Below, piece by piece: positions 40,191-62,494 of a DNA stretch of 64,000 nt. Source of the DNA: Erythrobacter sp. SCN 62-14 (GTDB lineage: Bacteria; Pseudomonadota; Alphaproteobacteria; Sphingomonadales; Sphingomonadaceae); contig MEDW01000003.1 of the NCBI GenBank assembly GCA_001724215.1, positions 1 to 64,000 on the forward strand. Reading direction: 5' to 3'. Numbering within the stretch: position 1 is the first letter of the stretch; each line of letters opens with the position of its first letter. The notes under the pieces were generated by a model, which made no database searches, was not told the origin of the DNA, and saw only the letters and a list, made by a program, of their open reading frames with translations. Position numbers and translations under genes: made by a program.

Positions 40191-41114
40191 CTATTTCACG
40201 CCCAGAGCTTCTGCCTGCCGCCGCAGCTCAGCCGCTTCACCCGGATTGGCGCGGATCGCTGCCTCAAGCGCAGCCTTCGCCTTGGCAGGCTCTCCCAGCG
40301 TCATGCGACTCCTTATCAGCATCACCCAGCCATCGAGGTTGCCGGGGTTCTGCTGCAGCCGCGCTTCAAGCTGGGCGACCATGCCTTGCGCCATTTCGCG
40401 CTGCTCGGCAGGGCTCATGCTGCCTGCCGCCGCCATCTCAGCGGCGCTTGGCCCGCGCACTGCCGGCAGGCCTGCGCCGCTGGGGGAAGCACCCGCACTG
40501 CGCCGCTCATTGGCAGCGGCAATCCGGGCAGCGACTTCAATGCCATTTATCTGTCCAACCTGCTCGATGGTGCGCACCAGGTCAGATTCCCACGGCGCGC
40601 CGGGAGGGGTATCGGCCAGCAACGCCAGCCATGCGGCAATGGCGCCTTGGTGATCCTTGTCGAGATCCTTCTTCACCGCGAGAAAATAGCGCGCGCGGGC
40701 ATCCTTGGGATCAAGTGCCACAGCCTTTTCGAAAGCCGCCAGCGCCTCTGACGGCAAAGGATCGCGCGCGCTTGCCATCACCAGTGCCTCACCCAACGCC
40801 GACCACAGCGCGCTTTGCTGGTCATCGATGGCCAGTGCGCGGGTATAGGCCTGCGCCGCCGCGGCAAATTCGCTGCGTTCAAAATGAGCAAAGGCCAGAT
40901 TGCTCCACGCGCGTGGATCATCGCTCGAAGCCTCGGCAAGCGTGCGCAGTTGTGCAAGATCAGGCTCGCCCTCGCCCTGCGAGCCGGCGACAGGCGCTGT
41001 TCCGCCTGTGCCTTCATAAATGTTGTAACCAATCGAAGCCGCCGCCAGCACCAAAGCTGCGCCCAGCAAATACCAGCCGAGCCGATTTGTGCCGTTTTGT
41101 GTCTCGCTATCCAT
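40191..41114 (-). CDS. CcmI/NrfG-like TPR protein for c-type cytochrome maturation
   Basis: 307 residues. One N-terminal membrane helix (about 12-32, RLGWYLLGAALVLAAASIGYN) anchors a periplasmic TPR region: DPRAWSNLAFAHFERSEFAAA, QSALWSALGEALV and NLDGWVMLIRSRMTLGEPAKA-type repeats. CcmI/CcmH/NrfG proteins hold apocytochrome c for the haem lyase. Standing divergent from an operon of multihaem cytochromes, a dedicated role in their maturation is plausible. ATG 41114 is chosen; the frame extends to 41150 without a better site. A general TPR scaffold is the alternative. Confidence 0.75.
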   Translation of the reverse strand: MDSETQNGTNRLGWYLLGAALVLAAASIGYNIYEGTGGTAPVAGSQGEGEPDLAQLRTLAEASSDDPRAWSNLAFAHFERSEFAAAAQAYTRALAIDDQQSALWSALGEALVMASARDPLPSEALAAFEKAVALDPKDARARYFLAVKKDLDKDHQGAIAAWLALLADTPPGAPWESDLVRTIEQVGQINGIEVAARIAAANERRSAGASPSGAGLPAVRGPSAAEMAAAGSMSPAEQREMAQGMVAQLEARLQQNPGNLDGWVMLIRSRMTLGEPAKAKAALEAAIRANPGEAAELRRQAEALGVK

Positions 41115-41222
41115 CAGACAAGCGCTAGCAGTGCGCGCAGCAACCGGCAATTCGCACTGGCAAAGGTGCGCGTTTTCTTTATGCTGCTCTTAGGCACAAT
41201 TGGGTCCAGAGGGGGGGATCGA

Positions 41223-43676
41223 TTGTCGGACTTGTATAAAGTCGCCATAATTGGATCAGGCCCTGCCGGATTGAGCGCTGCGGCGCGCGCGGCGGCAATT
41301 GGCATGAGCCATGTGCTGATCGAAAAAACCGATCACCTCTCCGACACGATCTTCAAATACCAGAAGGGCAAGCACGTCATGGCAACGCCCGCCAATCTGG
41401 TGCTCAGAAGCGATCTCGATTTCGACGCGGGCAAGCGCGAGGCGATCCTTGGGACGTGGGACGAACAGATCGCCACGGGGCGCGTGAACGTAAAACTCAA
41501 CGCCGAAGTGACCAAGGTCGAAGGCGCAAAAGGCAATTTCGCGATCCACTTGCGCAGCGGCGAAGTGGTGGCAGCTGAAGCCATCGTGCTCGCCATTGGC
41601 ACACAGGGCAATCCCAACCGGCTGCGCTGTCCGGGAGCGGATTCGCCGATGATCCAGTATCAATTGGATGATCCGGGCGAATATTTTGATGAACACATCA
41701 CCGTGATCGGATCGGGCGATGCGGGGATTGAAAATGCGCTGGGTCTGGCAGCTGACCCGGCGCAGCGCAATGTGGTGACGATCCTCAACCGCTCGGCTGA
41801 TTTCGCCCGCGCCAAGGCGGCGAACGTGGCGCTGCTCGAAGAAGCCGAACGCGAGGGGCGCATCTTTGTGCGGCGCGAGACGACACCTGCCGAAGTTCGG
41901 GACGGCGAATTGCTGCTCGACACCCGCGACGGGCAGGAGGCGATTCCCTGCCAGCGCATCATCGCACGCACCGGCTCGCAGCCACCGCGCGGCTTTGTGG
42001 AGGCCATGGGCATCGAATTTTCGAGCAGCGAACCCGGTGCCTTCCCCAAGCTTTCGCCCGTGTTCGAAACCACCACGCCCGGCATCCATGTGATCGGCGC
42101 GCTGGCGGGCTATCCGCTGATCAAGCACTGCATGAACCAGGGCTATGATGTGATCGAGTTCCTGAACGGGAACGCTGACTTGAAGCCCGCCGATGAGCCT
42201 ATTCTGGCGGAGAAATTCAATCACCTTCCCGGCAATCGCAACGTGGATGAATGGCTCGGCGTGTTTGGCGACAATATCGGCATTCTGGCCGATCTTTCCA
42301 CCCTGCAGCTGCGCGAATTGATGCTCGATTCCACGGCTCACGCCTATGAGCCGGGCGACGTGATTTTCCGCCGCAACGAGCCGGGTTCCTCGATGTTCGC
42401 GATTGCCGAAGGCTCGGTCGCGGTTGAAGTCAGCCCGCATGATCCCTCGATCACTGTGCCGATCGAACAGGGCTCGATCTTTGGCGAGGTGGGCCTGATT
42501 TCCGGCCGCCGCCGGGGTGCGACGGTGCGCGCGGCGGAGCCTGTCATTGCGCTCGAATTGTCGCGCACCGCAGCGCTGAAATTGCTGGCAACCTCGCCGG
42601 GAGCAGCGCGCGCGGTCACCGCGATTTCGATTGAACGCCAACTGCTCCAGATGTTCGGTTCAGGCCTCACCCGCGAAGATGTCGCGCCGCTCGTCGCCAG
42701 TGCAGAAGTGATGCAGGCGCGCGCGGGCCAAGTGATCGTCACTGAAGGGGCGGATGACAAGGACATCTTCATTATCCGGCGCGGGTCGATGATTGTGGAG
42801 AAGGAAATCGGCGGCAAGCCGGTGTTCCTCTCTTACCTGCCCGCTGGTTCCTATTTCGGCGAAATGGCGGTGATCGATGGTTCAGCCCGCACCGCCACGG
42901 TGAAAGCCGCGATCAAATCCGAGGTGATCCGACTGCCGGGCGACGGGTTTCTAGCGCTACTCGATAAAAACCCGGCGCTGCGCGAAAAGGCGCTGGCCGA
43001 CATGGCGGGGCGCCGCGCCACCAACGCCTTTATCGAGAGCCGGAAAGGCGATTTCACCGGCGCGGTTGATCTCTACTCCGAAACCGCCGCCTTCCTTGTC
43101 GACAACGGCATTGGCGAGGCAACCGATGTGCTGCTCATCGATGAAAAACTCTGCATTGGCTGCGACAATTGCGAGAAGGCCTGTGCCGACAGCCATGATG
43201 GCCTCTCCCGGCTCGACCGCGAGGCCGGGCGTTCCTACGCCCATCTCCATGTGCCGACGTCATGCCGCCACTGCGAGCATCCCCATTGCATGGCCGATTG
43301 CCCGCCCAATGCAATCCACCGCGGCCCGGATGGCGAGGTGTTCATCGATGAAACCTGCATCGGCTGCGGCAATTGCCAGCGGAACTGCCCCTATGGCGTG
43401 ATCCGCATGGACGCAAAGCCGCCGAAAAAGCCGAGCCTCCTCCAATGGATGCTGTTTGGCGCGGGCCCCGGCCCGGGCGAGGCGCCCTATGGCTGGCGCA
43501 AGAAGGAAGCGGCCAAGCAGCAAATGCCGGAGGCCAAGCTCGCGATCAAATGCGATATGTGTTCCGGCATTGATGGCGGCCCGGCCTGTGTGCGCGCCTG
43601 CCCGACGGGCGCGGCCATCCGTGTGAGCCCCGACAAATTCCTCACCTTCACCAAGCTCACCGAGGATGTGGAGTAA
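41223..43676 (+). CDS. Fusion: FAD/NAD(P) oxidoreductase + two cyclic-nucleotide-binding domains + four-cluster ferredoxin domain
   Basis: 817 residues from TTG 41223, right after GAGGGGGGG (alternative ATG 41181). Residues 1-340 form a flavoprotein with FAD site GSGPAGLSAAARAA and NAD(P) site GSGDAGIENALGLA; no CxxC disulfide is present. Residues about 358-470 and 481-600 are two CRP-type cyclic-nucleotide-binding folds. Their phosphate cassettes read FGEVGLISGRRRGATV and FGEMAVIDGSARTATV, the second near-canonical. Residues about 635-815 have sixteen cysteines in four ferredoxin-like groups (CIGCDNCEKAC, CRHCEHPHCMADC, CIGCGNCQRNCPYG, CDMC-x7-CVRACPTG), as in DmsB/PsrB electron-transfer subunits. 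It likely moves electrons from NAD(P)H to the membrane protein encoded next, under cAMP/cGMP control. No export signal, so cytoplasmic. Confidence 0.9.
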   Translation: MSDLYKVAIIGSGPAGLSAAARAAAIGMSHVLIEKTDHLSDTIFKYQKGKHVMATPANLVLRSDLDFDAGKREAILGTWDEQIATGRVNVKLNAEVTKVEGAKGNFAIHLRSGEVVAAEAIVLAIGTQGNPNRLRCPGADSPMIQYQLDDPGEYFDEHITVIGSGDAGIENALGLAADPAQRNVVTILNRSADFARAKAANVALLEEAEREGRIFVRRETTPAEVRDGELLLDTRDGQEAIPCQRIIARTGSQPPRGFVEAMGIEFSSSEPGAFPKLSPVFETTTPGIHVIGALAGYPLIKHCMNQGYDVIEFLNGNADLKPADEPILAEKFNHLPGNRNVDEWLGVFGDNIGILADLSTLQLRELMLDSTAHAYEPGDVIFRRNEPGSSMFAIAEGSVAVEVSPHDPSITVPIEQGSIFGEVGLISGRRRGATVRAAEPVIALELSRTAALKLLATSPGAARAVTAISIERQLLQMFGSGLTREDVAPLVASAEVMQARAGQVIVTEGADDKDIFIIRRGSMIVEKEIGGKPVFLSYLPAGSYFGEMAVIDGSARTATVKAAIKSEVIRLPGDGFLALLDKNPALREKALADMAGRRATNAFIESRKGDFTGAVDLYSETAAFLVDNGIGEATDVLLIDEKLCIGCDNCEKACADSHDGLSRLDREAGRSYAHLHVPTSCRHCEHPHCMADCPPNAIHRGPDGEVFIDETCIGCGNCQRNCPYGVIRMDAKPPKKPSLLQWMLFGAGPGPGEAPYGWRKKEAAKQQMPEAKLAIKCDMCSGIDGGPACVRACPTGAAIRVSPDKFLTFTKLTEDVE

Positions 43677-44548
43677 TGGCGAGCCGCGCATCCGGCGCTG
43701 GCAAAAGCCGCTTTAGCCGTGACGAGGCGCGGCGCGATTCCGATCATGTGAGCTTCCTCAAACACCGCCGTTTCCGCTGGCTGTGGATTGCGCTTGTCCT
43801 GAGCGGCACGGCGGTGCTCGCCTATGCGCTGATCGATCAAGAGCCGCGCCCCAATGGCGGGACATGGCTTGGCTATACGCTCGGCACCATCGGCGTGCTG
43901 CTGATCCTGTGGCTTTCGCTCTTGGGTGTGAGGAAGCGCCACATCACCACCGGCGCGTGGAGCCTCAAGGCGTGGACATCGGCCCATGTCTATCTCGGCC
44001 TCTCGCTGATCGTGATCGGGACGCTGCACACCGGGTTTCAGGTGAGCTGGAATGTCCACACGCTCGCCTATGTGTTGATGATGGTGGTGATCTTGTCGGG
44101 CATCTGGGGGGTGATCGCCTATGCCACCTTGCCCGCGCACCTTTCTGCCAATCGCCGCGAAATGACACGCATCGAAATGCTCGATGCGCTCGCGGCACTG
44201 GATCGCCAATTGGATAGCGCCGCGCAGCCGCTCGAACGCGCCGAGGCCGACCTGGTGCTGGCAACGCTCACGCAAGATATCTTCCACGGCGGCGCATGGG
44301 GGCGGCTTACCGGGAGCTATCCGGCTTGCGCCACTGCCCGCGCGCTCAAGGCCATCGGGACGGGCGATGAAGCCCACGCGCGCGTCCATGCCCTGCTGGA
44401 TAAACGCCGCGAACAGCTCGCCCAGATCCGCGGTTACTTGCGGATCAAGGCGCTGCTGGAAATCTGGCTGTTCCTCCACATCCCTGCCACCATTGCCCTG
44501 ATCGCGGCGCTTATCGCGCACGTCATCAGCGTGTTCTATTACTGGTGA
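43676..44548 (+). CDS. Five-helix membrane b-type cytochrome with ferric-reductase/NOX-like H-X13-H pairs
   Basis: 290 residues. Helices lie at about 33-54, 62-86, 100-120, 124-150 and 260-288. Helix 3 has H-x13-H (HVYLGLSLIVIGTLH) and helix 5 has H-x13-H (HIPATIALIAALIAH), the spacing used to stack two haems b between two helices in NADPH oxidases and ferric reductases. A roughly 100-residue cytoplasmic loop, rich in charged helices, separates helices 4 and 5. It has no flavin domain of its own; the preceding gene could supply flavin and Fe-S clusters. Role inferred: transmembrane electron transfer to the periplasmic cytochromes. The start overlaps the previous stop. Confidence 0.8.
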   Translation: MASRASGAGKSRFSRDEARRDSDHVSFLKHRRFRWLWIALVLSGTAVLAYALIDQEPRPNGGTWLGYTLGTIGVLLILWLSLLGVRKRHITTGAWSLKAWTSAHVYLGLSLIVIGTLHTGFQVSWNVHTLAYVLMMVVILSGIWGVIAYATLPAHLSANRREMTRIEMLDALAALDRQLDSAAQPLERAEADLVLATLTQDIFHGGAWGRLTGSYPACATARALKAIGTGDEAHARVHALLDKRREQLAQIRGYLRIKALLEIWLFLHIPATIALIAALIAHVISVFYYW

Positions 44549-44559: not shown

Positions 44560-46344
44560 ATGGCATTCCTCATCCGCACCATCGACTTCACCGCCTCGGG
44601 CCGCGAGATCATTCGTGATCGGGTCGTGGAACAGGCGCACCTCACGGTGGGCCGCGCGGCGGAATGCGATATCCACCTGCCCGATCTCGCGGTGGAACAG
44701 CGCCACTTGGCGCTCACCCTTGCAAGCGATGGCACTTTGCGCGCCGAGGCGCTCGGCACGCTCGGCTTTGCGCTCGACGGGCGCAGCGTCACCGAGGGCG
44801 TGATCGATCCGGGCGTCGGCGGCGAAATTGCGCTTGGCTCTGCCCTGATCGCAGCAGCGCGCGATGAAGCGGGCCGAGTCACCCTCACCATCCGCCAAGC
44901 CCCTGCCGAGGAAGGCAAGGGCGATGCGGTGGCAGGCTTCGCGCTCGCCAGCGCCCTGCCGAGCAAGCGCGCCGCCTCATGGGTGCTCGCCAGCCTTATC
45001 CTCGTGCTGCTGCTGGCCGTTCCGGTCTTCACCCATGCCACCCGCACGATCACTCCCAATGATCCGGACAAGATCACGCACGGCCAGACCGTGCTCGATG
45101 CCGCGTGGAGCACTGGCGCGCTTTCGGTGAAGCACCACGCGCTCGAAGAAAATTGCGAAAGCTGCCATGTGAACGCCTTTGTCTCGGTGCGCGATGAGAC
45201 CTGCATTTCGTGCCACAAGGGGCTGGGCGATCACGCCGCGAAACCGCGCCTCATCGCCGGGATGCCGGAGCTTTCATCAGGCGATGCCGCCTTGTGGAAA
45301 ATCGCCGGAATGTTCGGCAAGGAAGGGCGCGGCGCCTGCACCACCTGCCACACCGAACACGAAGGCAAGGTGCGACAACAGCCTGCAAGCGAGGCTTTCT
45401 GCAGCGATTGCCACGACAAGCTGGATACGCGGCTTACCGACACCGCTCTCGCCAATGCGCATGATTTCGGCAAACAGCACCCGCAATTCCGCCCCACTTT
45501 CTATGCCGCCTATGGGGCAAAAGAGCCGGTGCGCCTGTCGCTCGATAAAAAGCCGGTGGAGCAAAGCGGGCTGATTTTCCCGCACGATGTCCACATGGAT
45601 GAACGCGGGGGTGCGGCGCGCATGGCGATCAGCCTTGCGCAATATGGCGCGCCGCTTGAGTGCAAGGATTGCCACGCGGCCACTGCTGACAAAATCAGCT
45701 TCAAGCCGGTCGAGATGGAGCAATCCTGCGAGAGCTGCCACAGCCTTGTGTCAGGGCGCGGCGCGGGCGGCTTCACCAGCCTGCGCCACGGCGATGTGCG
45801 CAAATTCCGCGAGGATATTGCAGGCCTGAGGCAAGGCGCCGCCCGCAAGCCTGTTGGCGCCGCCCGCCAGCGGCCGGGGCAGTTCGGTGAGGCCGGACGT
45901 TACTACGCCCAATTTGGCCGCCCGGTGAACGCCCATATCAGCCTTGCACGAGGCCTTGAAAAGGGCGGGGTGTGCACCGAATGCCACCTGCCCACACAAA
46001 CGGGTGGCCGCGCTGACCTCGTGCCGGTGAACCTGCCTGATCGCTTCCTGATGCATGGCTATTTCAGTCACGAGGCGCACAAAAAGGAAGAATGCACCGA
46101 TTGCCACGCGGCCGACAAATCCAAGACCGCGAACGATCTTTTAATCCCTGATCTGGCAAGTTGTCGTGACTGCCACCTTGGAGCAACCGCCCAGAAAACC
46201 AAGAAAATCGTGCCCTCATCCTGCGCGATGTGCCACGCCTATCACGTCCCATCAGGACAATGGTCGCAAAGCCGTTCTGAAACGACCAAAGGAGCCTCCA
46301 GCTATGTTGCAGACGCCCGCCGCGCCAAAGGCTCCGACCAGTGA
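44560..46344 (+). CDS. FHA-domain, membrane-anchored decaheme cytochrome c
   Basis: 594 residues. Residues 1-110 are an FHA domain (LTVGRAAECDIHLPDLAVEQRHL); the usual Ser of the phosphothreonine pocket (VSRRH) is replaced (VEQRH), so binding may be altered. One membrane helix (about 137-157) places the rest in the periplasm, with ten CXXCH motifs (CESCH, CISCH, CTTCH, CSDCH, CKDCH, CESCH, CTECH, CTDCH, CRDCH, CAMCH). It resembles c3/NrfH-NrfB style multihaem folds. ATG 44560 has GAGGGGGCAGG upstream; a GTG at 44545 overlapping the previous stop is an alternative. It is placed to take electrons from the b-type cytochrome. Confidence 0.9.
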   Translation: MAFLIRTIDFTASGREIIRDRVVEQAHLTVGRAAECDIHLPDLAVEQRHLALTLASDGTLRAEALGTLGFALDGRSVTEGVIDPGVGGEIALGSALIAAARDEAGRVTLTIRQAPAEEGKGDAVAGFALASALPSKRAASWVLASLILVLLLAVPVFTHATRTITPNDPDKITHGQTVLDAAWSTGALSVKHHALEENCESCHVNAFVSVRDETCISCHKGLGDHAAKPRLIAGMPELSSGDAALWKIAGMFGKEGRGACTTCHTEHEGKVRQQPASEAFCSDCHDKLDTRLTDTALANAHDFGKQHPQFRPTFYAAYGAKEPVRLSLDKKPVEQSGLIFPHDVHMDERGGAARMAISLAQYGAPLECKDCHAATADKISFKPVEMEQSCESCHSLVSGRGAGGFTSLRHGDVRKFREDIAGLRQGAARKPVGAARQRPGQFGEAGRYYAQFGRPVNAHISLARGLEKGGVCTECHLPTQTGGRADLVPVNLPDRFLMHGYFSHEAHKKEECTDCHAADKSKTANDLLIPDLASCRDCHLGATAQKTKKIVPSSCAMCHAYHVPSGQWSQSRSETTKGASSYVADARRAKGSDQ

Positions 46345-47228
46345 TCCCCGCGCAAGAAACGCGTGATCCGCGCGCGCTGCTGATCGCGCAAATCACCGAT
46401 ATTCACGTCGGCTTTGCCCCCGATGAAAAGCCGGAGGAATTGAACCTCACCCGCTTTCGCGCGGTGCTGGAGCGCTTGTTCCACGGCCCCAATGTGCCCG
46501 ATCTGCTGGTGCTGTCAGGCGACATCACCGATCACGGCGATGGGGAAAGCTTTGCCAAGACCGCCGCCCTGCTAGAATGCGGCCCCTGCCCGATAGTGCC
46601 CATGGTGTGCAATCATGACAGCCGCGAGGGATTGCTCGGCGCTTTCCCGCATATGGAGGCGGCGGAAGGCGGATTTCTGCATTGGGCGTTCGAGATGGCG
46701 GGCCTCAGGATCATCTGCCTCGACAGCCTCGAAGATGGCCGCCACGGCGGCGCTTTCTGCGAAGCGCGGGCGGCATGGCTCACCGCAAGGCTGGCCGAAG
46801 CGCCCGAGACGCCGACGCTGATCTTCCTGCATCACCCGCCGGTGGTGGCCGGGATCGACTGGATGGACCCGGCACCTGATGAGCCGTGGATTGTCCGGCT
46901 GCGCAGCGTGCTCGAAGGGCAAACACAGGTGCAGGCGATCCATTGCGGGCACTTGCACCGCCAGATCACCACCCGCTTTGCCGGCATCCCGCTGGGCGTG
47001 ACGCCGTCGGTTGCGCCTTTGGTGGCGATGGATCTCTCCGCGATCGATCAGGATGTGCCCGATGATCGCGAGCTTATCACCACCGAACCGCCGACCTATG
47101 CGCTGCACCGCTGGGACGGGCAGCGGCTGGTTTCGCATTACGAACGCGTGGGCGATTGGCAGGTGCTCGCCCGCTACACGCAAGGCTTGCAACCCATGAT
47201 CCGCGATATGTTTGCAGAGCGCGGTTAG
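46341..47228 (+). CDS. Class III cyclic-nucleotide phosphodiesterase-like metallophosphoesterase (CpdA type)
   Basis: 295 residues with the metal-binding series of calcineurin-like phosphodiesterases: QITDIHVG, LSGDITDHG, CNHD (GNHD in most, Gly replaced by Cys), LHHPP and the terminal CGHLHRQ. The overall length and order match CpdA, which hydrolyses 3',5'-cAMP. No signal peptide, so cytoplasmic. The GTG start overlaps the stop of the FHA cytochrome (GTGA), tying it to the same transcript as the cyclic-nucleotide-binding oxidoreductase. Another nucleotide or phosphoester substrate remains possible. Confidence 0.82.
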   Translation: MIPAQETRDPRALLIAQITDIHVGFAPDEKPEELNLTRFRAVLERLFHGPNVPDLLVLSGDITDHGDGESFAKTAALLECGPCPIVPMVCNHDSREGLLGAFPHMEAAEGGFLHWAFEMAGLRIICLDSLEDGRHGGAFCEARAAWLTARLAEAPETPTLIFLHHPPVVAGIDWMDPAPDEPWIVRLRSVLEGQTQVQAIHCGHLHRQITTRFAGIPLGVTPSVAPLVAMDLSAIDQDVPDDRELITTEPPTYALHRWDGQRLVSHYERVGDWQVLARYTQGLQPMIRDMFAERG

Positions 47229-47238: not shown

Positions 47239-50200
47239 TTAGCGCCCTGCCCGTTGCTGGCTTGCAGGAGGCGGCAAGCGCCCGATCCAGCGGCTCATAT
47301 TGACCTCGTCGCTGACTTTCCACGGCACGCCTGCGCGGGTCATGAACAGCCGCTCCATTTCAGGCCGGGTGAAGGGCCGCGAACCAAGCCGTCCAAACAC
47401 CGCGATCTGCCCGCCGGTTTCATCCACCGCGCGGTCGCGGTCGAGCCCCTTGGAGATGGAGATCGCGGGTGAAGGCGTCTTGGCGAAGGCAATCAGTTCG
47501 GGCACGGGCGTAGGTGAAAAACCATAGAAATTGCGCTGGCTATCGGGACTGGTGAGTTGCAGCAGCTTCATGCCGTTGCGCCCATCCGCCACATAGGCAA
47601 ACAGCGAGGCATTGGTGGTCGCCACCATCACATCCTCGGCATCATTCAGCGCGCCATCGAGCGTCACCTTTTGGTGGATGCGCGGGGCGAGCGGGTTCTT
47701 GACGTCGAGGATCACGAGGCCCTCGGCCTTGGCCGCGACATAGGCATAGGTGCGCGCGACATAGATGCGGCGCGCGTCGCTAAGGCGCACTGTGGCTTCG
47801 GGCCGGGCGATAGGATGTCGCAGGTTGGTGACATCGAACAGCTTCACCCCATCCGCATCCGAAACCCACAAATAGCGGAACTGGATCGCGCTCGCCCGTG
47901 CATCGCGAAGCTCGCGCACCGCAGCAAGCTTGGGTTCGAGCGGATTGGCGAGATCGACCACGACAAGCCCACGCGCCGCGGTAATGAAGGCAACCTCGCC
48001 CGCCAAGTGGATATGCCGCGCCCCATCGAGCACGCCTCCGGGGTTCCACGCGGTGCTGCCATCGGCGAGCACTTCGCGCCGCAGCCGGTTGCCGCGGAAT
48101 TCGCCGTCGGCCAGCGTGTTGACATTGACGAGCACCAGCCCCTCCACGCTGTCAGTCACCACCGCATAATTATAGATCGGCAGGAACGCCTGTTCCTGAT
48201 TGATTGCGCGCATTTCAGGGGTGCTGCGGGTGGGCGCAATCGGCTGATTGGTGGGCAGCGCCATGCAGGTGGCGTTCGCGGTCTTGACCTGCGTGTTGTG
48301 GCCCAGCTTGGAGAACGGCCCCGTCAGGATGCGCTCGGACACCCCCTTGTTGGCGACAGAGGCGACATCATAGGCGCGAAAGCCGCCCTTGCCTTCGGCC
48401 ACGAACATATATTCGCCGCGCACCTGCAAGCAGCCGACCCGGCCCGGCGTTCCCTGATTGATGTTGACGAATTCCTCTAACGGCTTGGTTTCGCCCGAGA
48501 GGTTCTTGTCGAAAGTATTGCCGCGCACCCAGTTCTTCAGTTCGCGGCCATTATCCTCAACGTGCATCCGCCAATAATCGGGATAGGCGTATTTGTGGAG
48601 GTATGACCCGATCACCGATTGCGGCTCGTCATATTCGGTGACGCGGGTCGCCTGAAACCCGCCCTCAAGACCCGTCCACGCGTTCATCCCAACGAAGTTT
48701 ACATAATTCGTGCCCAGCAAGAGCAGCTGCGCCATGATCGCGTTGTTATCGTCCTTGTCGGAAAGGTGGCAATCCGAGCAGGTCTTGGTCTCGGTTTTCC
48801 GCACAGTGTGCGGGAAATGCGGCGCGAAGGCCTGTGACGAGAACCCGATCGCGCTGATCGGCGGCTGCTGCACGTAGATGCGCTCGCGGTTGATGTTCAT
48901 CGAGGACAGCACCAGCGCCGAGGATGACCGCACCGGGGCGATCTGATTGCCCTTGGTGGTCTGGTGCTTGCCGAGCTGGAACATTTCATCGCGCGCGACC
49001 TGCGGGTTGTAAGTCGCAAAGTTGCGCGTCTCGCCGCCTTCATAACGGTGCGAGGCGGTTTTCCAGTTGGCCTCAATCGGCAGGTGACACCCGCCGCAGC
49101 TGGTCGTCCATGACAGGTGGCAGGTGAAGCACGCCATTTCGGGATCGCGGTGGGCGCGGTCTTCAAGGCTGACACCTTCACCAAATTCAAACCGGCCGGT
49201 TTCCGCGCCATAGCGGCTCATCAGCTTGGCGCGCGCCGCCTTGGCGTTGAATTCGGGCGAGGTCGGATCGACTGCGTCCTTCACCAGGCTCACCACCCAT
49301 TCGAGCTTGGGATCGACAATCGAGCGCTGAATCAGCTTGCGGCGGCCATCTGCGCCTTCGACCCATTCAAAGCGGCGCTGGCCATCGGGGTTCCTGAGCA
49401 GCGCAAGGTTATGCCCCTGCGGCGGGGCAGCAGGCCCGCTGGTGCGAAGCGTGGGGTAGGCATCTGCCGTGCCGTGGCAATCCTTGCAGCCGATTTCGAT
49501 GGCGTTTGCCACCTCGCCATAGATGAGGCCATTGCCGTGGCTGTCCTGTTCGTAATGGCAATCGGCGCATTGCATCCCGACCTCGGCGTGGATGCTCATC
49601 ATGTGGACTGCTTTTCCGGGATTGACGCCGGGTTCGACAAACTTGCCCTCGCCTTCCTTGCGCCATTTTTCGGGATCATCGGGATCGATGATCTTGCCGT
49701 CGGCATCGAGCAAATTGCCCTCGCGGTCGCGCTTGAAGATGGCGCGGAAATTCCAGCCGTGGCCGTGATAATCGGCAAATTGCGTATCTTTGAGCTTGGG
49801 GTTCAAGTCATAGACATTGCGCAGGAAATCGAGATCTGCCCACTTGCCTTTTGGCGCCGCGCCCTCCGGGTTGCGATCGAGCACCGCGCGCACTTCGGCA
49901 GAGGTGGGATACTTCTGCTGCTCTGGCCACATGAAAGGCGCATCGCTTTCATAGTCCCACATGGTGTAGCCGAGGTAGGAATTGAGGAAGATATTGGGCT
50001 GGTGCATATGGCAATTCATGCACTGCGCGGTGGGGATGGCGCGGGTGAAGACGTGTTGAAGCGGGTGGCCCTTCTCCTTCATCTTGCCGTCGATGGTGAG
50101 CGCGCCGTCCTCATAAGTCTTGCCGGGCTCCTTCACCGCCGCATGTTTTTTATCCTTCTTGCCATAGCCTCCGCCCGCAGGCTCCAGCTTGTTCGCGATC

Positions 50201-51330
50201 GTGGGGTCAACCGTGATGGTCTGCCCATCGCGGCCATATTGCGCATAGGTGAGCGAATGGCGCGGCTCGCGGTCATTGGCATAGACCACATGGCAGGATG
50301 CGCAGCCCGAATGGCGATAATCGCCCGGCTGATCGTTGGTCCCCATGAACCATGTGAAGGGATCATTGAGGCGCGTCTTGTGGATGTTGAGCGCGGGGAT
50401 CGCCACCCTCAGCCCCGTGCCGGGGCCGCGATTGGATTGCTTCAAATCAGGCCGCCCCGGCTCCTCCAACCGCTGGATCTGGCCCGATGGGCTCGGCAAG
50501 CCGATTTCGGGGAATTGCGAATTGATGGTGCGCCCGCCGCGTTCAAACACCCGGAACACATCGCCCGGCGGGATCACCTGCCATGTGGGCAGGGGGTAAA
50601 GCTCAGCCAGCACGCCGCGCGCTTCCTGTTCGGCTGACAGCTTGCCATCCTTGCCGGCGCCGGGCGAAGTGATCTTCGCAGGCTTGCCATCGCGGGTATA
50701 GGCCTCTCCCAAAGCGTAATTCTTGAAGGGCAAAATGCCGTTATTATAGGCCGCCCCGCCCCACAGCATCGCGCCTGTCGCCATGATTGATCGTTCCGCC
50801 GCCTCGATCGCCTGAATGTGACACGCCCCGCAGGCATCGCGCGCCACGCGGTAATCGGATGGGTTCACGAATTTGACGAATTCAGGCGCTTCCTTGTTGA
50901 GCAGCGCATAGGTCCGCTTGGGATTGGCGGATGAGGGAAAATGCCAGCTATCGGGATATTTGGGAAGCACATGCGCCCGGTCGCGCGCGGCGACATAATC
51001 GGGGTGATCGTGCGGCAATTCGGCGTTGCCGCGCACAGACGTATCCCCGCCGTGGCAATCGGTGCAGCCTATCCGTACGGCAGGCGAAAGGTGCATGGTG
51101 GGTGCATCGGATTTGGTGTGGCAGGTGAGACAGCCTTCTGATTTCTTATCCATTTCCGCGACCGATTGCTGGGCCGGAGCGGGCGCGGCAATCACGCGGG
51201 AATAATCGCGCTTCACCGGTTTTTCCTTGTCGGCCGCCATCGTGTCGCCCGCCAGCATCGCAAGCGCCAAGAGGCCTGCTCCGATCACCAGAGCGAGTGT
51301 GCGCATCAGGGGTTGGGTCAGCCAAGCCAT
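47239..51330 (-). CDS. Giant decaheme cytochrome c with C-terminal LVIVD-repeat propeller
   Basis: 1363 residues with a signal peptide (cleavage near DTMAA-DK). Residues about 65-850 hold ten CXXCH haem sites (CLTCH, CTDCH, CGACH, CASCH, CMNCH, CADCH, CKDCH, CFTCH, CGGCH, CSDCH), unevenly spaced among long haem-free segments. Residues about 960-1290 carry LVIVD-type repeats (GLVVVDLANPLEPK, GVKLFDVTNLRHP, GLVILDVKNPLAPR, GMKLLQLTSPDS), which fold as a beta-propeller on exported proteins. It overlaps the upstream barrel gene by one base. A surface or outer-membrane-associated terminal oxidoreductase is inferred. Confidence 0.9.
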   Translation of the reverse strand: MAWLTQPLMRTLALVIGAGLLALAMLAGDTMAADKEKPVKRDYSRVIAAPAPAQQSVAEMDKKSEGCLTCHTKSDAPTMHLSPAVRIGCTDCHGGDTSVRGNAELPHDHPDYVAARDRAHVLPKYPDSWHFPSSANPKRTYALLNKEAPEFVKFVNPSDYRVARDACGACHIQAIEAAERSIMATGAMLWGGAAYNNGILPFKNYALGEAYTRDGKPAKITSPGAGKDGKLSAEQEARGVLAELYPLPTWQVIPPGDVFRVFERGGRTINSQFPEIGLPSPSGQIQRLEEPGRPDLKQSNRGPGTGLRVAIPALNIHKTRLNDPFTWFMGTNDQPGDYRHSGCASCHVVYANDREPRHSLTYAQYGRDGQTITVDPTIANKLEPAGGGYGKKDKKHAAVKEPGKTYEDGALTIDGKMKEKGHPLQHVFTRAIPTAQCMNCHMHQPNIFLNSYLGYTMWDYESDAPFMWPEQQKYPTSAEVRAVLDRNPEGAAPKGKWADLDFLRNVYDLNPKLKDTQFADYHGHGWNFRAIFKRDREGNLLDADGKIIDPDDPEKWRKEGEGKFVEPGVNPGKAVHMMSIHAEVGMQCADCHYEQDSHGNGLIYGEVANAIEIGCKDCHGTADAYPTLRTSGPAAPPQGHNLALLRNPDGQRRFEWVEGADGRRKLIQRSIVDPKLEWVVSLVKDAVDPTSPEFNAKAARAKLMSRYGAETGRFEFGEGVSLEDRAHRDPEMACFTCHLSWTTSCGGCHLPIEANWKTASHRYEGGETRNFATYNPQVARDEMFQLGKHQTTKGNQIAPVRSSSALVLSSMNINRERIYVQQPPISAIGFSSQAFAPHFPHTVRKTETKTCSDCHLSDKDDNNAIMAQLLLLGTNYVNFVGMNAWTGLEGGFQATRVTEYDEPQSVIGSYLHKYAYPDYWRMHVEDNGRELKNWVRGNTFDKNLSGETKPLEEFVNINQGTPGRVGCLQVRGEYMFVAEGKGGFRAYDVASVANKGVSERILTGPFSKLGHNTQVKTANATCMALPTNQPIAPTRSTPEMRAINQEQAFLPIYNYAVVTDSVEGLVLVNVNTLADGEFRGNRLRREVLADGSTAWNPGGVLDGARHIHLAGEVAFITAARGLVVVDLANPLEPKLAAVRELRDARASAIQFRYLWVSDADGVKLFDVTNLRHPIARPEATVRLSDARRIYVARTYAYVAAKAEGLVILDVKNPLAPRIHQKVTLDGALNDAEDVMVATTNASLFAYVADGRNGMKLLQLTSPDSQRNFYGFSPTPVPELIAFAKTPSPAISISKGLDRDRAVDETGGQIAVFGRLGSRPFTRPEMERLFMTRAGVPWKVSDEVNMSRWIGRLPPPASQQRAGR

Positions 51331-53171
51331 CAGTAAGTCAGCACCACATTGGCCAGCACCGAGAAAAACTCGCGGCCTGTGCCCAGATTATCAAACAGAT
51401 TGCGAAAGCCCTTGCCCGGCAGCAGCGCGGCGGCCGACAGCCGCATCACAATGTTCTGCGTCGCCTTGGGCCGCCAGATTGCGGCGGCTGACAGATCAAA
51501 ACCGATCTCGCGCGGGATGCTGCCTTCGTTCCTTAACACCTGTAAAACCTGCGTGTTCTGGAACCACAGGTGGTTGGCATTGGTGGAAAGTCGGAACTCC
51601 GGCGTCAGATCGAAATCCGCGCCAATGCCGGTCAGGATCAGGCCGGGATTGACGAAATTGGATTGGCCCTGCTCTTTCGAGCTGCGCAGCGAGTTGAGGA
51701 TGCCATTGCGCCCATTGACGCTGACGGCGCGCCCGCCACCTGCGAAAGGAATGGTCTGGCGGATCCAGTAAGAGGTATCCGCCCCTGCAAAAATCGGGTT
51801 TTCAAAGATCGCATCAAACCCGGTTTCCTTGTTGTCAAACGGGTCTTTATCGCCGCTTGCATAGGCGCCGGACAGACGGAAGCGCATCCAGTTATTGTCG
51901 TAACTTGCCTCCAGCGCGCCGAACTGGGCGTTGATATTGGCAGGCTCTCCGGTGAAGATATTGTTGCGGTTTTCGCCGAGCGCCCAATAGGCGCTCGCCG
52001 TCAGGTTGATGCGTCCGATGCGGCCATCAGCGTTGTAGCCCAGATAGACCACATCATAATCGCGCCCCCGCAAATCGCCGAGCAAAGCCGGGCGCACCGG
52101 AAAGCCATTGGTGTCCACCTCGATGCGGCCGCCTTCGCGGTTCATGTTGTAGGCAACAGTGATCTGGCTGGTGAGCGCGGGGATCAGGAAATCCTGCCGG
52201 TAGGCATTGGCGACAAACACAAAATCATCGCGCGGGCGCTGGACAATCGAATTGAGGCCGGAATTGGTGTCTTTCTCCAGCCGCCAGAACGCGCCGAGAT
52301 TGAACTGAAAGCGGTTGTTGTCGCGCGAGCCGAACAGCCGCACGCCCAATTGCTGATCGTTGAACAGGAACCCGCGGAAATCCGACTGAAACGGCTGGAT
52401 GCCTGCGCGGATCGAGATGAAATCGAAGCGTTCCGTGTCGAATTCGGTGAAGTGGTAATCGACGAAAGCTTCCTGCACCCCCACGAAACTGTCAAAGCGG
52501 GTCGTCCCGCGCGAAGGCTCGACAAACAGCACGCGCCGTTCGGGCACTTCGACATAGTTCATGTTGAAAGCGAGCGTGACGCGGTATTCAATCGAGGGCG
52601 GCTTGAAGTTGGTCGAGCCTTTGAGCAGCGCTGCGCCGACCAGAAAAGTCTGGCTCAGCACAGTCGAGAAATTGTTGCCGAACACATCGAGCCGGTCGGG
52701 GTCCTGCGTCGTCTGGATCCCGACAGGAATCGGGAAAGTGCGCGGTTCATACACAGTGTCGCTGATGAGATTGGCGACGAAAAACCAATCATCGCCTTTA
52801 ATCGGCAGCCACGGCACTTTTTCGCGGTTGATCGGGCGATCCCCCTTGTAAGTGTTCTGGTTATAGGGGTCGAACAGGTTTTCGCGCACCAGCCCCAGCG
52901 TTTCAATCAGCCGCCAGCGATCAGGGATCGGGAGCTGATCGCGCGGGAAAGCTTCGGGCGGCGGCGCACGGATCGCGCCTTCGTTGCGCTGGATGGTGCG
53001 TTCGGGCAGCGGCGCGGTGTAGCCGGGCCGCTGGCGGCCTTCGATCAGTTCCGGGTCAACCGGCGGCGCGTCCTCCTCCCAATCGGCGGGCGGCGGGGAT
53101 GCTTGCTCGCTCGGCTCTTCGGCGGCGACCGGTTGCACAATCAACGCAGCAGGGAGGAAGAGCCAAGCCAT
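51330..53171 (-). CDS. Large outer-membrane beta-barrel protein, putative porin partner of the multihaem cytochrome
   Basis: 613 residues. A signal peptide (cleavage near VAAEE) leads to a Pro/Glu-rich plug-like segment (about 25-90), followed by dozens of alternating amphipathic strands (YRVTLAFNMNYVEV, FDFISIRAGIQPFQSDF, NWMRFRLSGAYASG) ending in VLANVVLTY with a terminal Tyr. The size lies between general porins and MtrB/PioB barrels. It is translationally coupled to the decaheme gene, so a porin-cytochrome conduit is the natural reading; sequence identity to MtrB/PioB is not evident to me. Confidence 0.82.
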   Translation of the reverse strand: MAWLFLPAALIVQPVAAEEPSEQASPPPADWEEDAPPVDPELIEGRQRPGYTAPLPERTIQRNEGAIRAPPPEAFPRDQLPIPDRWRLIETLGLVRENLFDPYNQNTYKGDRPINREKVPWLPIKGDDWFFVANLISDTVYEPRTFPIPVGIQTTQDPDRLDVFGNNFSTVLSQTFLVGAALLKGSTNFKPPSIEYRVTLAFNMNYVEVPERRVLFVEPSRGTTRFDSFVGVQEAFVDYHFTEFDTERFDFISIRAGIQPFQSDFRGFLFNDQQLGVRLFGSRDNNRFQFNLGAFWRLEKDTNSGLNSIVQRPRDDFVFVANAYRQDFLIPALTSQITVAYNMNREGGRIEVDTNGFPVRPALLGDLRGRDYDVVYLGYNADGRIGRINLTASAYWALGENRNNIFTGEPANINAQFGALEASYDNNWMRFRLSGAYASGDKDPFDNKETGFDAIFENPIFAGADTSYWIRQTIPFAGGGRAVSVNGRNGILNSLRSSKEQGQSNFVNPGLILTGIGADFDLTPEFRLSTNANHLWFQNTQVLQVLRNEGSIPREIGFDLSAAAIWRPKATQNIVMRLSAAALLPGKGFRNLFDNLGTGREFFSVLANVVLTY

Positions 53172-53174: not shown

Positions 53175-55130
53175 CTAAAGCCCCTCGCACACGTTCTGCG
53201 CTGCGGTATCTAGGAAAGGCGCGAAGGGGCAGTTGATATAGCGCAGCCGCACCTGCCGCGTGCCCACCTGCACAAGCACGCGGTCTGCGCGGATCGCATT
53301 CGGCGCATTGCCGATGCCGGTCCCCGCCTTCTGCGCGCCATTGTGAAGGCCGAGAAAGCTGATCATGTCATCCTGATCGATCCCGTCGCCCGACACACCA
53401 ATCGCGCCGACCAGCACATTACCGCGATAGATCGGAACAGAGCCGGGAAAGATCTGGATGCCATTGGCAAGGCGGCTCGTGCCCGCAGGCGTCACCGGCA
53501 GGCTGGTGCAATTCCTCGGCGTATCAGTGGGCGCAGCGCCGGTGACAAAGCCCAAGTGCTGCGCCAAATTGCCGATGATGAGCGCCGATTGCAGCCCGGT
53601 CGAAAAGGGATTGAACTGTGCGATGGGGCGCGAAAACGGCCCCGGTGGGCGGCCCAATTCGCCATCGGGGAAATAGGGGCGCGCAAGGTTTCCGGTCGCC
53701 CGGTCCGAGAAAGCGAATTGCCCGGTCAGCGCCTGTGGATTGCCGAGGAAATCGCGCGCGCGACTCACGAATTGCGGCACTTCGCCGCTGGCCGCCTGCA
53801 TTTCGGCAGCCGCAAAGGGGGCAGAGAAGAAATTGGCGCTGCGCGCCTTCTGCAAGCTCACATCAATCCCGAAAATCGGCGCATCGGGCGAACGCACAAT
53901 GCCGAGCACCGCCCCGCGCGTATCAACCAGGCTGATCGTCACTTCGGCGCGGCTGTCCAAGGGCTGGCGGATTTGGGCGCGCGCGCGGCTCATGATGGTG
54001 AAGGCTTCTTCGAGGATCACCCGCGCCTCGGCAAAGGAGATGGGGGTGGCGACATCGCCTGCATCTGTCCCGCCGCGGACCGGGAAGCGGGCAGCGCCCA
54101 TACCGTTGGTCAGCACAAAGGCATCGCGCAAGCTGAACTCGGAAGGCAAAGACGCGCGCACGCCCGAAGCCTCGCTGCCATAGGTTGCCCCTGCAACAAG
54201 GCCGCCGCCGCCGAAATAACCCGCCACCGCCACCAGCGCGCCGGGGGTTGCCGCAAAGCTCGCGCCGCCAATCGCACCGACTTGCGAATAGGCCGCATCG
54301 GTGTAGCGCAGCGATGTGCCGTCAGCGAAAATGCGGTCTGCGCGGATGGTGATCGGTGCTTCGAAGCCCACCGTGCCGGCCAGCGCAATCAGCTCATCCA
54401 GATCATTGTCGCGGTCGAGCACATTGGGATCAAACCCATAGACCCCGTCGGCCATCACCCCGATACCGCCCACTACGACGCCGTTTTTATAAAGCGGAAA
54501 GCCCCCCGGATCAGCCGCCAGCCCCAAGGGCGAGCGCTTGGGCCCGACCATCCCATCACTCGCCCGCGCGGCCAGATCAGAGCAGGGCAATTGGCTGAAC
54601 TGGACGCCAAACAAAGGCCCGCTTTCAAGGCCAGCCGTGCTGGGGGCGGGCGGGAAGTGCTCTTGCACGATCATGCTGGCGGTGCGGGTGGAAAAGGCAT
54701 TCCCGCTGCTCGACAGATAAGCCCCGGTGATTGCCTTGGCGATGGCGGCAGCGGCGCTGGGCACTTCCAGCCCTTGCGCATCAATATTGTCGCCATTGGG
54801 CGCCGCCGATATCCGCGCAGTCGCTCCTGCTCCCGGCATGGCAAACACGCCGAGCACATTGCCCACGCGGTCAGTAACGGCGATAGTGGCGCTGGCCCCG
54901 CTGGCACGGGCCTGGGCTGCGGCCTGCGCAATGATCGTGCCGACTTCGGCTGCACTCAGGTTTTCGGCGCGCGGCACGGAATAAAACGCGCCGCTAGGAG
55001 GCGGAGCAGGTGGCGGCGCGGGCGGCGCGGTTCCGCCGCCGCCTCCGCCGCCACTTTCACCGCCGCCGCCGCACGCGCTCACCACCAGGGCAAGGCCAGC
55101 CAGCAGCGCGGTTCCCCCCTTGCGCCCCAT
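53175..55130 (-). CDS. Lipoprotein with tandem GlcG/HbpS-like (haem-degrading family) domains
   Basis: 651 residues. The lipobox LVVSAC (Cys20) is followed by a Gly/Pro linker (about 21-48). Two long homologous segments (about 50-300 and 350-630) each show the DUF336/GlcG pattern: ATIAVTDRVGNVLGVFAMPG and VTISLVDTRGAVLGIVRSPD, then Gly-rich GGFPLYKNGVVVGGIGVMADG and GSVPIYRGNVLVGAIGVSGDG. HbpS of this family binds haem outside the cell. Its place between a pentaheme cytochrome and the barrel suggests haem or cofactor binding within the surface complex, but catalysis is unknown. Confidence 0.82.
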   Translation of the reverse strand: MGRKGGTALLAGLALVVSACGGGGESGGGGGGGTAPPAPPPAPPPSGAFYSVPRAENLSAAEVGTIIAQAAAQARASGASATIAVTDRVGNVLGVFAMPGAGATARISAAPNGDNIDAQGLEVPSAAAAIAKAITGAYLSSSGNAFSTRTASMIVQEHFPPAPSTAGLESGPLFGVQFSQLPCSDLAARASDGMVGPKRSPLGLAADPGGFPLYKNGVVVGGIGVMADGVYGFDPNVLDRDNDLDELIALAGTVGFEAPITIRADRIFADGTSLRYTDAAYSQVGAIGGASFAATPGALVAVAGYFGGGGLVAGATYGSEASGVRASLPSEFSLRDAFVLTNGMGAARFPVRGGTDAGDVATPISFAEARVILEEAFTIMSRARAQIRQPLDSRAEVTISLVDTRGAVLGIVRSPDAPIFGIDVSLQKARSANFFSAPFAAAEMQAASGEVPQFVSRARDFLGNPQALTGQFAFSDRATGNLARPYFPDGELGRPPGPFSRPIAQFNPFSTGLQSALIIGNLAQHLGFVTGAAPTDTPRNCTSLPVTPAGTSRLANGIQIFPGSVPIYRGNVLVGAIGVSGDGIDQDDMISFLGLHNGAQKAGTGIGNAPNAIRADRVLVQVGTRQVRLRYINCPFAPFLDTAAQNVCEGL

Positions 55131-56521
55131 CAGCCAAGCCTGCCAATCGCGCCGGCAGCCGCCTTCAAAGCGCTGCGGAAATCGGCGGGGCGATAGGCGT
55201 TGGGCTCTTCCACCGCCTTGTAAGCGCGCGCCAGATTGGCGCGGATACCCGCTGCCGCCCCGCTGGTGACGCGGCCCTCGCGCACCAGAGCATTCAAGAG
55301 CGTGTCCACCGCCATCACCGCCTGCACCGATCCGGCATAGTCGGTGAACTGCGCAGAGGTTGCCTCACCTGCGATAATGGCGATCACGCGGAAGGCATCA
55401 TCTTTGCCATAGCCGCGCGTGCTGAGCGCATCAGCGAGCGCCCCGGCCCGCGCACCCAGCCCTTGCGCCGCTGTGCGCGCCGCGCCTGCATCGCTTGCCA
55501 TCGCCTTGTGGAAATCACGCGCCGCAGTGCGGAATGCAGCGGCTTCTGACGGGACCAGCGCGCCCGCCACCGCGCCGAGCAGGATGATGTTTTCATCATT
55601 GAAAGGCGGATTGCCAAAGGCGATGGGACGGGCGGGATTAACCTCAAAGGTCAGCTTGCGGTTTGGCCCGTCAGTGATGGTGCGGTGGCACGAATGGCAA
55701 TCGTAGAAATAGAACTGCGGGAAGATGCCTTCTGACGCAAATTTGGGCTGGGCAAACAGGCTGGTGGCCCGCCGCACCGCTTCGGCCTGTCCCACCGCCC
55801 AGAACCGCACCGCATTCGGGCGCGATTTGCGCGCCACATAGTCGGCATCAATATCGTGGTGCTGTTGCAGCGTGCTGAACAGATCAAGCTCGAAGGAAAT
55901 GCGCGGGTGGCCTGCTGCCATCATCGCGTGAGTCACGAATTGCCCCGGCTTGGATGAACCATAGTGGCAATCAAGGCAGACATTGGCGCGCGCCTTGGGG
56001 GTATCAAGCGGGATCAGCCCTGCCGCAATGTTGCTCGCATGGGTGGCAGGCCGGGCATAGTGTGCCGCCAGCCAGCCTGCGCCGCTGGTCGATCCCGAAG
56101 CGCCGTGGCAGCTTTCGCAGCCCACCCCATCGCTGAGCGTGAATTTCGCGCCGCGCTGCGCTTTGGGGGCATAGGTCGCATGGCAGCCTAGACAGGCCTC
56201 GGCAGAGGTTGCAGACCCCAATCCAAGGCTGGCGGCAATCTGCTGCCCGCGCCGCCCGGCAAGCACGGCGTAAGCGCGGCTATGGGCGCCCGAGGGTGAG
56301 GAGGGTTCTTGCCAGGTGGCTATTTCATCCTGCCGGACAACCGCGCCGTTGCCTTCAGCCCGGCCATGGCAAGTGGAGCCTGCACAGCTGGCCACGCCTT
56401 CAAACACCGGATTACCAATCGCGACGGAAGCGGGAAAAATCACGCAGAGCGCGAGCATTGCCCCGCCCGCAGGCGCAAGCAACCGCCTCAACGCGTGGTT
56501 CAAAGCCGATCTTTCCGCCAT
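55130..56521 (-). CDS. Cytochrome c554-like multihaem cytochrome (4 CXXCH + 1 CX4CH)
   Basis: 463 residues, with a signal peptide ending near VAIGN. Haem sites are CAGSTCH (a CX4CH form, at about 46), CLGCH, CESCH, CLDCH and CHSCH, all in the first 280 residues, with HxRxYAVL-type spacing as in the c554/c' family. The C-terminal 180 residues are haem free, Ala-rich and helical. It lies first in the minus-strand operon with a good ribosome site (GGGGGAAGAG). A periplasmic shuttle between the inner-membrane decaheme and the outer-membrane complex is inferred. Confidence 0.85.
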   Translation of the reverse strand: MAERSALNHALRRLLAPAGGAMLALCVIFPASVAIGNPVFEGVASCAGSTCHGRAEGNGAVVRQDEIATWQEPSSPSGAHSRAYAVLAGRRGQQIAASLGLGSATSAEACLGCHATYAPKAQRGAKFTLSDGVGCESCHGASGSTSGAGWLAAHYARPATHASNIAAGLIPLDTPKARANVCLDCHYGSSKPGQFVTHAMMAAGHPRISFELDLFSTLQQHHDIDADYVARKSRPNAVRFWAVGQAEAVRRATSLFAQPKFASEGIFPQFYFYDCHSCHRTITDGPNRKLTFEVNPARPIAFGNPPFNDENIILLGAVAGALVPSEAAAFRTAARDFHKAMASDAGAARTAAQGLGARAGALADALSTRGYGKDDAFRVIAIIAGEATSAQFTDYAGSVQAVMAVDTLLNALVREGRVTSGAAAGIRANLARAYKAVEEPNAYRPADFRSALKAAAGAIGRLG

Positions 56522-56637: not shown

Positions 56638-57393
56638 TCACGCTTCCATATCCTCTGCGGCCTGCGCTGCTGCTTCGAGCGATGTGCTGAGCTGCTCAAG
56701 TTGGACAGCGCACCCTTTGCCGATCAGCGCTTCGGCAAGCGCATCGGGTGCCTCATAATCCTCGCTCAAAAGCATAAAGCCAAGCTGGGCGGCGAGCGTC
56801 CCGTCGGGCGCGGTCACCTGATAGGTTGTCCCTTCGCGGATCGGCAGGCGCGCAGGATCGAGCGCAGCGATCATCACCGTGTCATCGAAAGTCACCTCGA
56901 CCTGCGCTTCCCCCGCTTCATCGGCGATGCGGTAGGTCGAGACGCCAGCCGTGCCAGGACGCCACAGCCGCACAGTGTCGAGATCATAAAGGCAGATCGT
57001 ACCCGAGCGCGTCACATCGACATACCACAGGCTGGGATTGCTGGGCGCGTCATCCACTTCGCCGCGCACCGCCCCGGTGCGCACCCGGCTGGCGGCCCGC
57101 TTGCGGGTAAGGGCAGCAAAGCGCTCGTTCGCCACTTGCGGGCGATCTCCCACCCGGTGGCTGCCCGCGCCCTTGATCACGCGGGTACCGCCCGAGGTCA
57201 GCACTGTCACCACATCGCCATCGCGCAAGGTGATTGTGGCATTGTCATCGAGCTTGGTGCCGACAGGAAAGCGTGAGGCCGATGGCCCGGAGGATTTCAC
57301 CACCACGCCTGCCAAGACGCTCGCTGGCATGGCAAGACATGCGCCGGCAAGCAGTGCACCGGAAATCCGTTGTTTCAACCTAGCTGAGAACAT
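56638..57393 (-). CDS. FecR-like secreted protein
   Basis: 251 residues, with the ATG at 57393 preceded by GGAGGGA and overlapping the cyclase stop by 14 bases. A signal peptide (cleavage near VLAGV) is followed by a FecR-type beta domain (SRFPVGTKLDDNATITLRDGD, VTVLTSGGTRVIKG). The conserved pattern is that of periplasmic FecR domains, but the cytoplasmic and membrane parts of a true anti-sigma factor are absent. Together with the CHASE2 cyclase it resembles stand-alone FecR proteins found with such cyclases and CHAT genes in other bacteria. Confidence 0.8.
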   Translation of the reverse strand: MFSARLKQRISGALLAGACLAMPASVLAGVVVKSSGPSASRFPVGTKLDDNATITLRDGDVVTVLTSGGTRVIKGAGSHRVGDRPQVANERFAALTRKRAASRVRTGAVRGEVDDAPSNPSLWYVDVTRSGTICLYDLDTVRLWRPGTAGVSTYRIADEAGEAQVEVTFDDTVMIAALDPARLPIREGTTYQVTAPDGTLAAQLGFMLLSEDYEAPDALAEALIGKGCAVQLEQLSTSLEAAAQAAEDMEA

Positions 57394-59440: not shown

Positions 59441-59455
59441 CGCGCGCCGCCTCGC

Positions 59456-62493: not shown

Positions 62494-62494
62494 C

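Follow-up and report, generated by a model that had tools for sequence, protein, structure and literature searches.

The window analysed here is the first 64,000 nucleotides of contig MEDW01000003.1 of Erythrobacter sp. SCN 62-14. On its plus strand, an open reading frame (ORF) at 43676-44548 encodes a membrane protein of 290 residues, which we regard with moderate confidence as the membrane subunit of a three-part inner-membrane complex: an NAD(P)H-linked conduit to the envelope or the outside that is probably gated by cyclic nucleotides. The other two parts would be the flavin/Fe-S protein encoded directly upstream and a ten-haem cytochrome with a forkhead-associated (FHA) domain encoded directly downstream (Table 1). 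The domains, the invariant ligands, the gene linkage, the fusion and the exchange of the flavin module on which this proposal builds are all read from sequences. The membrane protein carries every diagnostic feature of the inner-membrane proteins (IMPs) of PCC3 and PCC4, a family proposed in 2017 as part of these putative porin-cytochrome clusters (PMC5566968).

The ORF starts with ATG, and the two H-X13-H motifs that an earlier sequence-only reading of this DNA had placed on two helices are both there, H104 and H118 in transmembrane helix 3 (TM3) and H268 and H282 in TM5, each pair preceded by W-X3 (W100-H104-H118 and W264-H268-H282). The HX13H spacing by itself is weak evidence, because 6.7% of shuffles of the 290-residue sequence yield two such motifs (two WX3HX13H arise in 0.01%). 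What settles the reality of the pairs is their conservation: two HX13H are kept in 88 of 88 relatives (two WX3HX13H in 87 of them), and H104, H118, H268 and H282 are the sole invariant histidines in a 21-sequence alignment that extends to remote relatives of the PCC4 and PCC3 types (H128 is not invariant there). The SGxxG motif lies on TM4 (S141 G142 I W G145), and [ST]GxxG was found in all 88 relatives. Hydropathy segments at 33-55, 62-87, 99-123, 121-156 and 257-290 correspond to five helices and match those of an AlphaFold2 (AF2) model. The positive-inside rule puts RKR 86-88 and the loop of 100 residues at 153-257 on the inside, from which TM3 and TM5 are predicted to be parallel; H104/H268 would therefore face the cytoplasmic side and H118/H282 the periplasmic side. 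The chain stops after TM5, no flavin domain follows the helices, and no Pfam or NCBIfam family was matched at cut-off. The reported overlap with the upstream gene is real and amounts to one shared base (TAATG: stop TAA 43674-43676, start ATG 43676).

The upstream gene has its likely start at TTG 41223 (preceded by GGGGGG) and encodes 817 residues. Pfam domains and relatives in the PDB (YpdA/Bdr 7a76 and 7a7b; FeS subunits 7z0s and 7qv7) bear out that it is a fusion with FAD, NAD(P) and Fe-S sites. Its N-terminus shares the FAD/NAD(P)H fold of the bacillithiol disulfide reductase YpdA/Bdr, but it is fused to two cNMP domains and a four-cluster Fe-S domain, and its score is 118 against a curated cut-off of 340. 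Among 93 partner sequences the 16 Fe-S cysteines are invariant, and the residues of the FAD motif and of the cNMP motif (GE...R..T) are conserved. In loci L146 and L147, from two genomes outside the class of the window, the partner and the membrane protein form a single chain of 1118-1123 residues with the YpdA-type part N-terminal; these fusions are judged real by their contiguous homology and argue that the two proteins function as one unit. Open frames of 868 and 1154 residues, also considered as fusions, were dismissed as chance GC-rich frames.

Eight PCC4-type loci have an Fe-S partner that lacks the FAD domain (558-607 residues where measured), and a gene for a separate FNR-type flavoprotein (FAD_binding_6, NAD_binding_1, Fer2) is present in all eight but in none of the 21 loci with a fused YpdA-type FAD domain. 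The FNR-associated and YpdA-associated membrane proteins form separate clades (0.94 and 0.99), and the swap is for this reason best read as one old exchange rather than many independent ones. That the flavin half of a split system was exchanged between lineages is thus well supported, and the alternation, together with the fusions in L146 and L147, speaks for the suggestion of the sequence-only reading that a reductase had been split and its flavin half exchanged.

IMPs of PCC3 and PCC4 were described as having five TM helices, WX3HX13H on TM3 and TM5, and SGxxG on TM4, and were already likened to FRD/NOX and to cytochrome b (He et al. 2017, PMC5566968). The window protein shares all of these features with the PCC4 IMP, and its motifs are identical to those of the PCC3 IMP (PMC5566968; Sideroxydans, PMC12442390). 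Profile comparison by hhalign with eight PCC4-type proteins gave a probability of 99.8% (E 5.7e-29), where the PCC4 or PCC3 type of a locus was assigned by gene content and haem counts and without the sequences of He et al. No significant overall homology was reported between PCC3 and PCC4 proteins (PMC5566968); the profile of the window family reaches a probable PCC3-type locus (G476/L153, E 2.5e-9). There, a cytochrome of 623 residues with 24 CxxCH (L153:8020-9891) adjoins the related five-helix protein, and the locus also holds a 1353-residue ORF with a weak barrel match, so that it is probably a PCC3 cluster.

A PCC4 cluster consists of a porin, cytochromes with 4, 5 and 10 haems and the IMP, with the tetrahaem gene preceded by a separate redox gene and, in Subgroup II, the IMP by an Fe-S gene (PMC5566968). 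The window resembles it in the IMP, in the Fe-S gene directly upstream and in the ten-haem cytochrome alongside, but its haem set is 10/10/5, its porin is unrelated and it has no FNR gene. Its partner carries a fused YpdA-type FAD domain where PCC4 has a separate FNR-type flavoprotein, its ten-haem cytochrome carries an FHA domain, and its outer half is made up of an unrelated barrel, an LVIVD ten-haem cytochrome and an HbpS lipoprotein; we therefore view it as a PCC4-like core with a different outer half. Nor is it a PCC3 cluster: there the cytochromes mostly carry at least about 20 haems, one per 22-39 residues, whereas the window cytochromes have 10 haems in 599 residues and 10 in 1363 (about 60 and 136 residues per haem).

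The sequence-only reading had also called the protein a NOX/ferric-reductase-like di-haem domain. The prediction of a di-haem b-type membrane half stands, given the conservation of the ligands; membership of the NOX/ferric-reductase family (Ferric_reduct, PF01794) does not, and we rejected it. The window protein has no match to this family at the Pfam cut-off, hhalign is ambiguous (6-71%), and a six-frame Ferric_reduct search of its own genome does not pick it up (4 of 16 relatives match weakly, E 0.013 or weaker). The two families are alike in two HX13H helices predicted to hold two stacked b-haems and in a cytoplasmic flavin/NAD(P)H input, but the window protein lacks TM6, its chain does not contain the FNR-type C-terminal FAD/NAD(P)H domain required for NOX, and its electrons would exit to a multihaem cytochrome. 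Cytochrome b561 (PF01292), which has its ligands on TM1, TM2 and TM4, a pattern that the window protein does not show, was likewise rejected (Ni_hydr_CYTB 10.2 bits against a cut-off of 30.1; hhalign 0.3-16%); all 16 relatives tested touch PF01292 weakly (best 1.6e-7). The b cytochromes of formate dehydrogenase-N and hydrogenases in the PF01292 clan resemble the window system in that a subunit with four 4Fe-4S clusters feeds a membrane di-haem b, but the window protein has two ligands on each of two helices and the window has no catalytic Mo or Ni subunit. A Pfam match to BT1 (E 0.001) was dismissed because it fell short of the cut-off and none of the other 15 of 16 members shared it. A sequence search of the PDB with the membrane protein gave no match, and no relatives were found in viral contigs.

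The ORF of the third part opens at GTG 44545, although ATG 44560 is the likelier start. Its Pfam matches are FHA, just above the threshold (20.8 against 20.7), Cytochrome_C7 and Cytochrom_c3_2, and it shows homology to the PCC4 ten-haem cytochrome (E 9e-12), of which the one example examined has no FHA match. Partner, membrane protein and FHA cytochrome are linked in 55 of 55 full Sphingomonadales loci and in 21 of 21 loci elsewhere. A 'Forkhead-associated protein' with 10 haem motifs from 27 iron-oxidiser genomes (PMC10734462, Table 1, cluster 403), to which no role was given, is probably the same kind of cytochrome.

The outer-membrane half is encoded on the opposite strand. Outside Sphingomonadales, its HbpS/barrel part (with the LVIVD cytochrome where the DNA reaches that far) is linked in 13 of the 21 loci, and the HbpS-like lipoprotein adjoins the core there too. 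The AF2 model of the barrel has a pLDDT of 60 and matches the 18-strand AlgE in Foldseek (E 2.7e-13); hhalign with the PCC4-type porin stayed below 1%, i.e., we saw no sequence relation between the two. By BLAST the five-haem cytochrome is 36% identical to the tetrahaem cytochrome of locus L120 and 29% to a PCC4-type tetrahaem cytochrome. L120 and L117 are hybrids, in which a flavin/membrane/FHA core of the window type stands with the porin and the 4- and 5-haem cytochromes of the PCC4 type. Both ends of the chain have thus been swapped while the membrane protein and the ten-haem cytochrome stayed constant. The FHA cytochrome and the outer-membrane module had escaped the sequence-only reading, and they make it likely that the membrane protein works as a relay in an envelope-spanning chain rather than as a self-contained reductase.

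Table 1. Features of the redox locus and its neighbourhood, in window coordinates.
Feature	Position	Strand	Evidence or linkage
Putative cytoplasmic electron-input protein: YpdA/thioredoxin-reductase-like FAD-NAD(P)H, two cNMP domains, four 4Fe-4S (16 Cys)	41223..43676	+	Pfam
Five-helix inner-membrane protein, predicted di-haem cytochrome b	43676..44548	+	Translation, hydropathy, AF2, ligand conservation
FHA (N-terminal, presumably cytoplasmic), one TM (about 140-170), ten CxxCH (periplasmic)	44560..46344	+	Pfam, hydropathy
SpdA/CpdA-like cyclic-nucleotide phosphodiesterase (metallophosphoesterase)	46341..47228	+	Metallophos; 4-base overlap with cytochrome gene
Exported cytochrome, 1363 residues, ten CxxCH and LVIVD repeats	47239..51330	-	Linked in 51/55 Sphingomonadales loci
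Outer-membrane beta-barrel of about 18 strands with an AlgE/OprD-like fold	51330..53171	-	AF2, Foldseek; linked in 50/55 Sphingomonadales loci
Lipoprotein-like protein, HbpS-like domains	53175..55130	-	PF03928 2e-20
Five-haem c554-like cytochrome (4 CxxCH and 1 CX4CH)	55130..56521	-	PF13435 1.3e-11
CHASE2 and adenylyl/guanylyl cyclase, possible cyclic-nucleotide source	57380..59440	-	Domain search

From this arrangement we infer haem occupancy, path, direction, gating and acceptor as follows. NAD(P)H would reduce the YpdA-type FAD domain, whose electrons would then run through the four 4Fe-4S clusters to the cytoplasmic haem (H104/H268), cross the membrane to the periplasmic haem (H118/H282) and reach the ten-haem cytochrome anchored with its FHA domain. 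The latter would pass them to the outer-membrane module of five-haem cytochrome, LVIVD cytochrome, barrel and HbpS lipoprotein, with a final acceptor that may be extracellular or periplasmic. Gating of the flow probably lies with the FHA domain and the two cNMP domains, and the phosphodiesterase of the operon would reset the signal. The outward direction is favoured because NAD(P)H is of low potential and the membrane potential favours outward flow.

Several observations weigh against this proposal. The AF2 model of the membrane protein, built on a shallow alignment of Sphingomonadales sequences only, is of low confidence (pLDDT mostly 60-77 in the helices), and Foldseek found with it no PDB match below E 0.33. 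The linkage counts are drawn from related genomes and hence are not independent. Four of the 21 loci outside Sphingomonadales (L146, L147, L150 and L156) showed no outer-membrane half in the DNA available (L150 is cut by the contig end), so that the core may also deliver to an acceptor in the periplasm. The linkage of the phosphodiesterase is nearly confined to Sphingomonadales, and the CHASE2 cyclase is inconstant: of 15 related loci examined, 8 have it in this position and the others do not. Finally, the published model makes the PCC4 protein quinone-active (He et al., PMC5566968).

That last hypothesis, published for PCC3 and PCC4 alike, would have a quinone-active cytochrome b take up electrons from outside (from Fe(II), Mn(II) or another donor) into the quinone pool, or to NAD+ by reverse transport. 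It gains from the report of PCC3 in a Mn(II)-oxidising Erythrobacter and from the reported lack of an Fe-S gene in PCC4 Subgroup I, where the membrane protein may work alone (PMC5566968). For the window system we nevertheless consider it unlikely, because the partner itself carries a flavin/NAD(P) site and a chain of Fe-S clusters, and with the fusions these make a quinone step unnecessary, and because a flow inward to NAD+ would oppose the membrane potential. A redox-sensing or signalling complex, with the cNMP, FHA, cyclase and phosphodiesterase components as output and an electron flow that reports NAD(P)H or oxygen status, would account for the pair of cNMP domains, whose binding motifs are conserved, the FHA domain, the phosphodiesterase in the operon and the cyclase near some loci; but a conductor of 16 Fe-S cysteines, ten c-haems and two predicted b-haems seems heavy for mere sensing, most loci have the outer-membrane cytochrome/barrel module in linkage, and the PCC4 ten-haem cytochrome examined retains the remaining chain without a recognisable FHA domain, so that we hold this to be highly improbable. 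We give very little credence indeed to a true enzyme of the NOX/ferric-reductase type, in which the periplasmic haem would itself reduce O2 or Fe(III) and bypass the cytochromes: the two HX13H on TM3 and TM5 do resemble the FRD domain (He et al., PMC5566968) and a few members make weak contact with Ferric_reduct, but the window protein falls below the family cut-off and is missed in its own genome, and the ten-haem cytochrome invariably adjoins it. An NAD(P)H-linked conduit to the envelope or the outside hence remains the reading that we prefer.

Around the core, the phosphodiesterase is in the operon in all 55 full Sphingomonadales loci; it matches NCBIfam SpdA at 1.7e-34, yet below the equivalog cut-off. 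A CcmH/CycH-type TPR protein of cytochrome c maturation (40191-41150, minus strand) is divergent from the redox operon in the same 55 of 55 loci. A second cluster adjoins the redox locus (56638-64000, minus strand) with a FecR-like protein, the CHASE2-cyclase, CHAT-TPR and a filamentous-haemagglutinin-like ORF, and is mostly present in about half of 15 relatives examined. Within it, a CHAT domain ORF and a TPR ORF overlap in different frames (59456-62553, minus strand); both parts lie in one frame, nearly abutting, in seven relatives, and a frameshift near 60500, or else a sequencing error, seems to have split the copy in the window. At 38512-39105 (plus strand) a lipoprotein-like ORF resembles the 'metal-independent carbonic anhydrase' family (E 1.7e-42, 145 bits against a cut-off of 350).

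Relatives of the membrane protein are encoded in at least 582 stretches of public genomes, and among 289 genomes sampled from the window's class 40 have a match to it. Reaction-centre genes occur in 34 of 41 genomes of the genus, including that of the window, but a tie to phototrophy was rejected, since G005, G009, G015 and G030 hold the locus and lack reaction-centre genes.

The combination of an exchanged flavin part with cyclic-nucleotide sensors seems to be undescribed in the open literature that was searched, although the supplementary tables of He et al. could list a cluster of the window type. The function of PCC3/PCC4 conduits is unverified, for PCC3 also in recent work, and in the published model they terminate at quinone (PMC5566968, PMC12442390). 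The window variant indicates a source or sink of electrons in the cytoplasm: its flavin/Fe-S partner, which in some loci is fused to the membrane protein and in others gives way to an unrelated flavoprotein, suggests NAD(P)H and not quinone as the end of the chain. It is conceivable, and we propose it only tentatively, that aerobic bacteria have here a direct, quinone-independent outlet from cytoplasmic NAD(P)H into a cytochrome conduit of the outer membrane, which cyclic nucleotides and, via FHA, phospho-threonine signals would switch and which is widespread in Alphaproteobacteria.

If true, such an outlet could underlie activities of the envelope, for example the reduction of tellurite that is membrane-bound and NADH-linked in aerobic anoxygenic phototrophs. 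The deposited genome of Erythrobacter ramosus, which we take to be the same organism as Erythromicrobium ramosum, holds the locus (L047). Membranes of Erythromicrobium ramosum E5 reduce tellurite (PMC5023272), and the available portions of two reports on aerobic anoxygenic phototrophs name no gene for this activity (PMC5488091, PMC5023272). The link is only a speculative lead, because the purified NADH-tellurite reductase of KR99 has subunits of 62 and 55 kDa with no haem mentioned. Direction and regulation become testable in cultured strains of Erythrobacter, Novosphingobium and Sphingobium; if the proposal is true, a common group of aerobes would own a regulated route that exports electrons of NAD(P)H from the cell.

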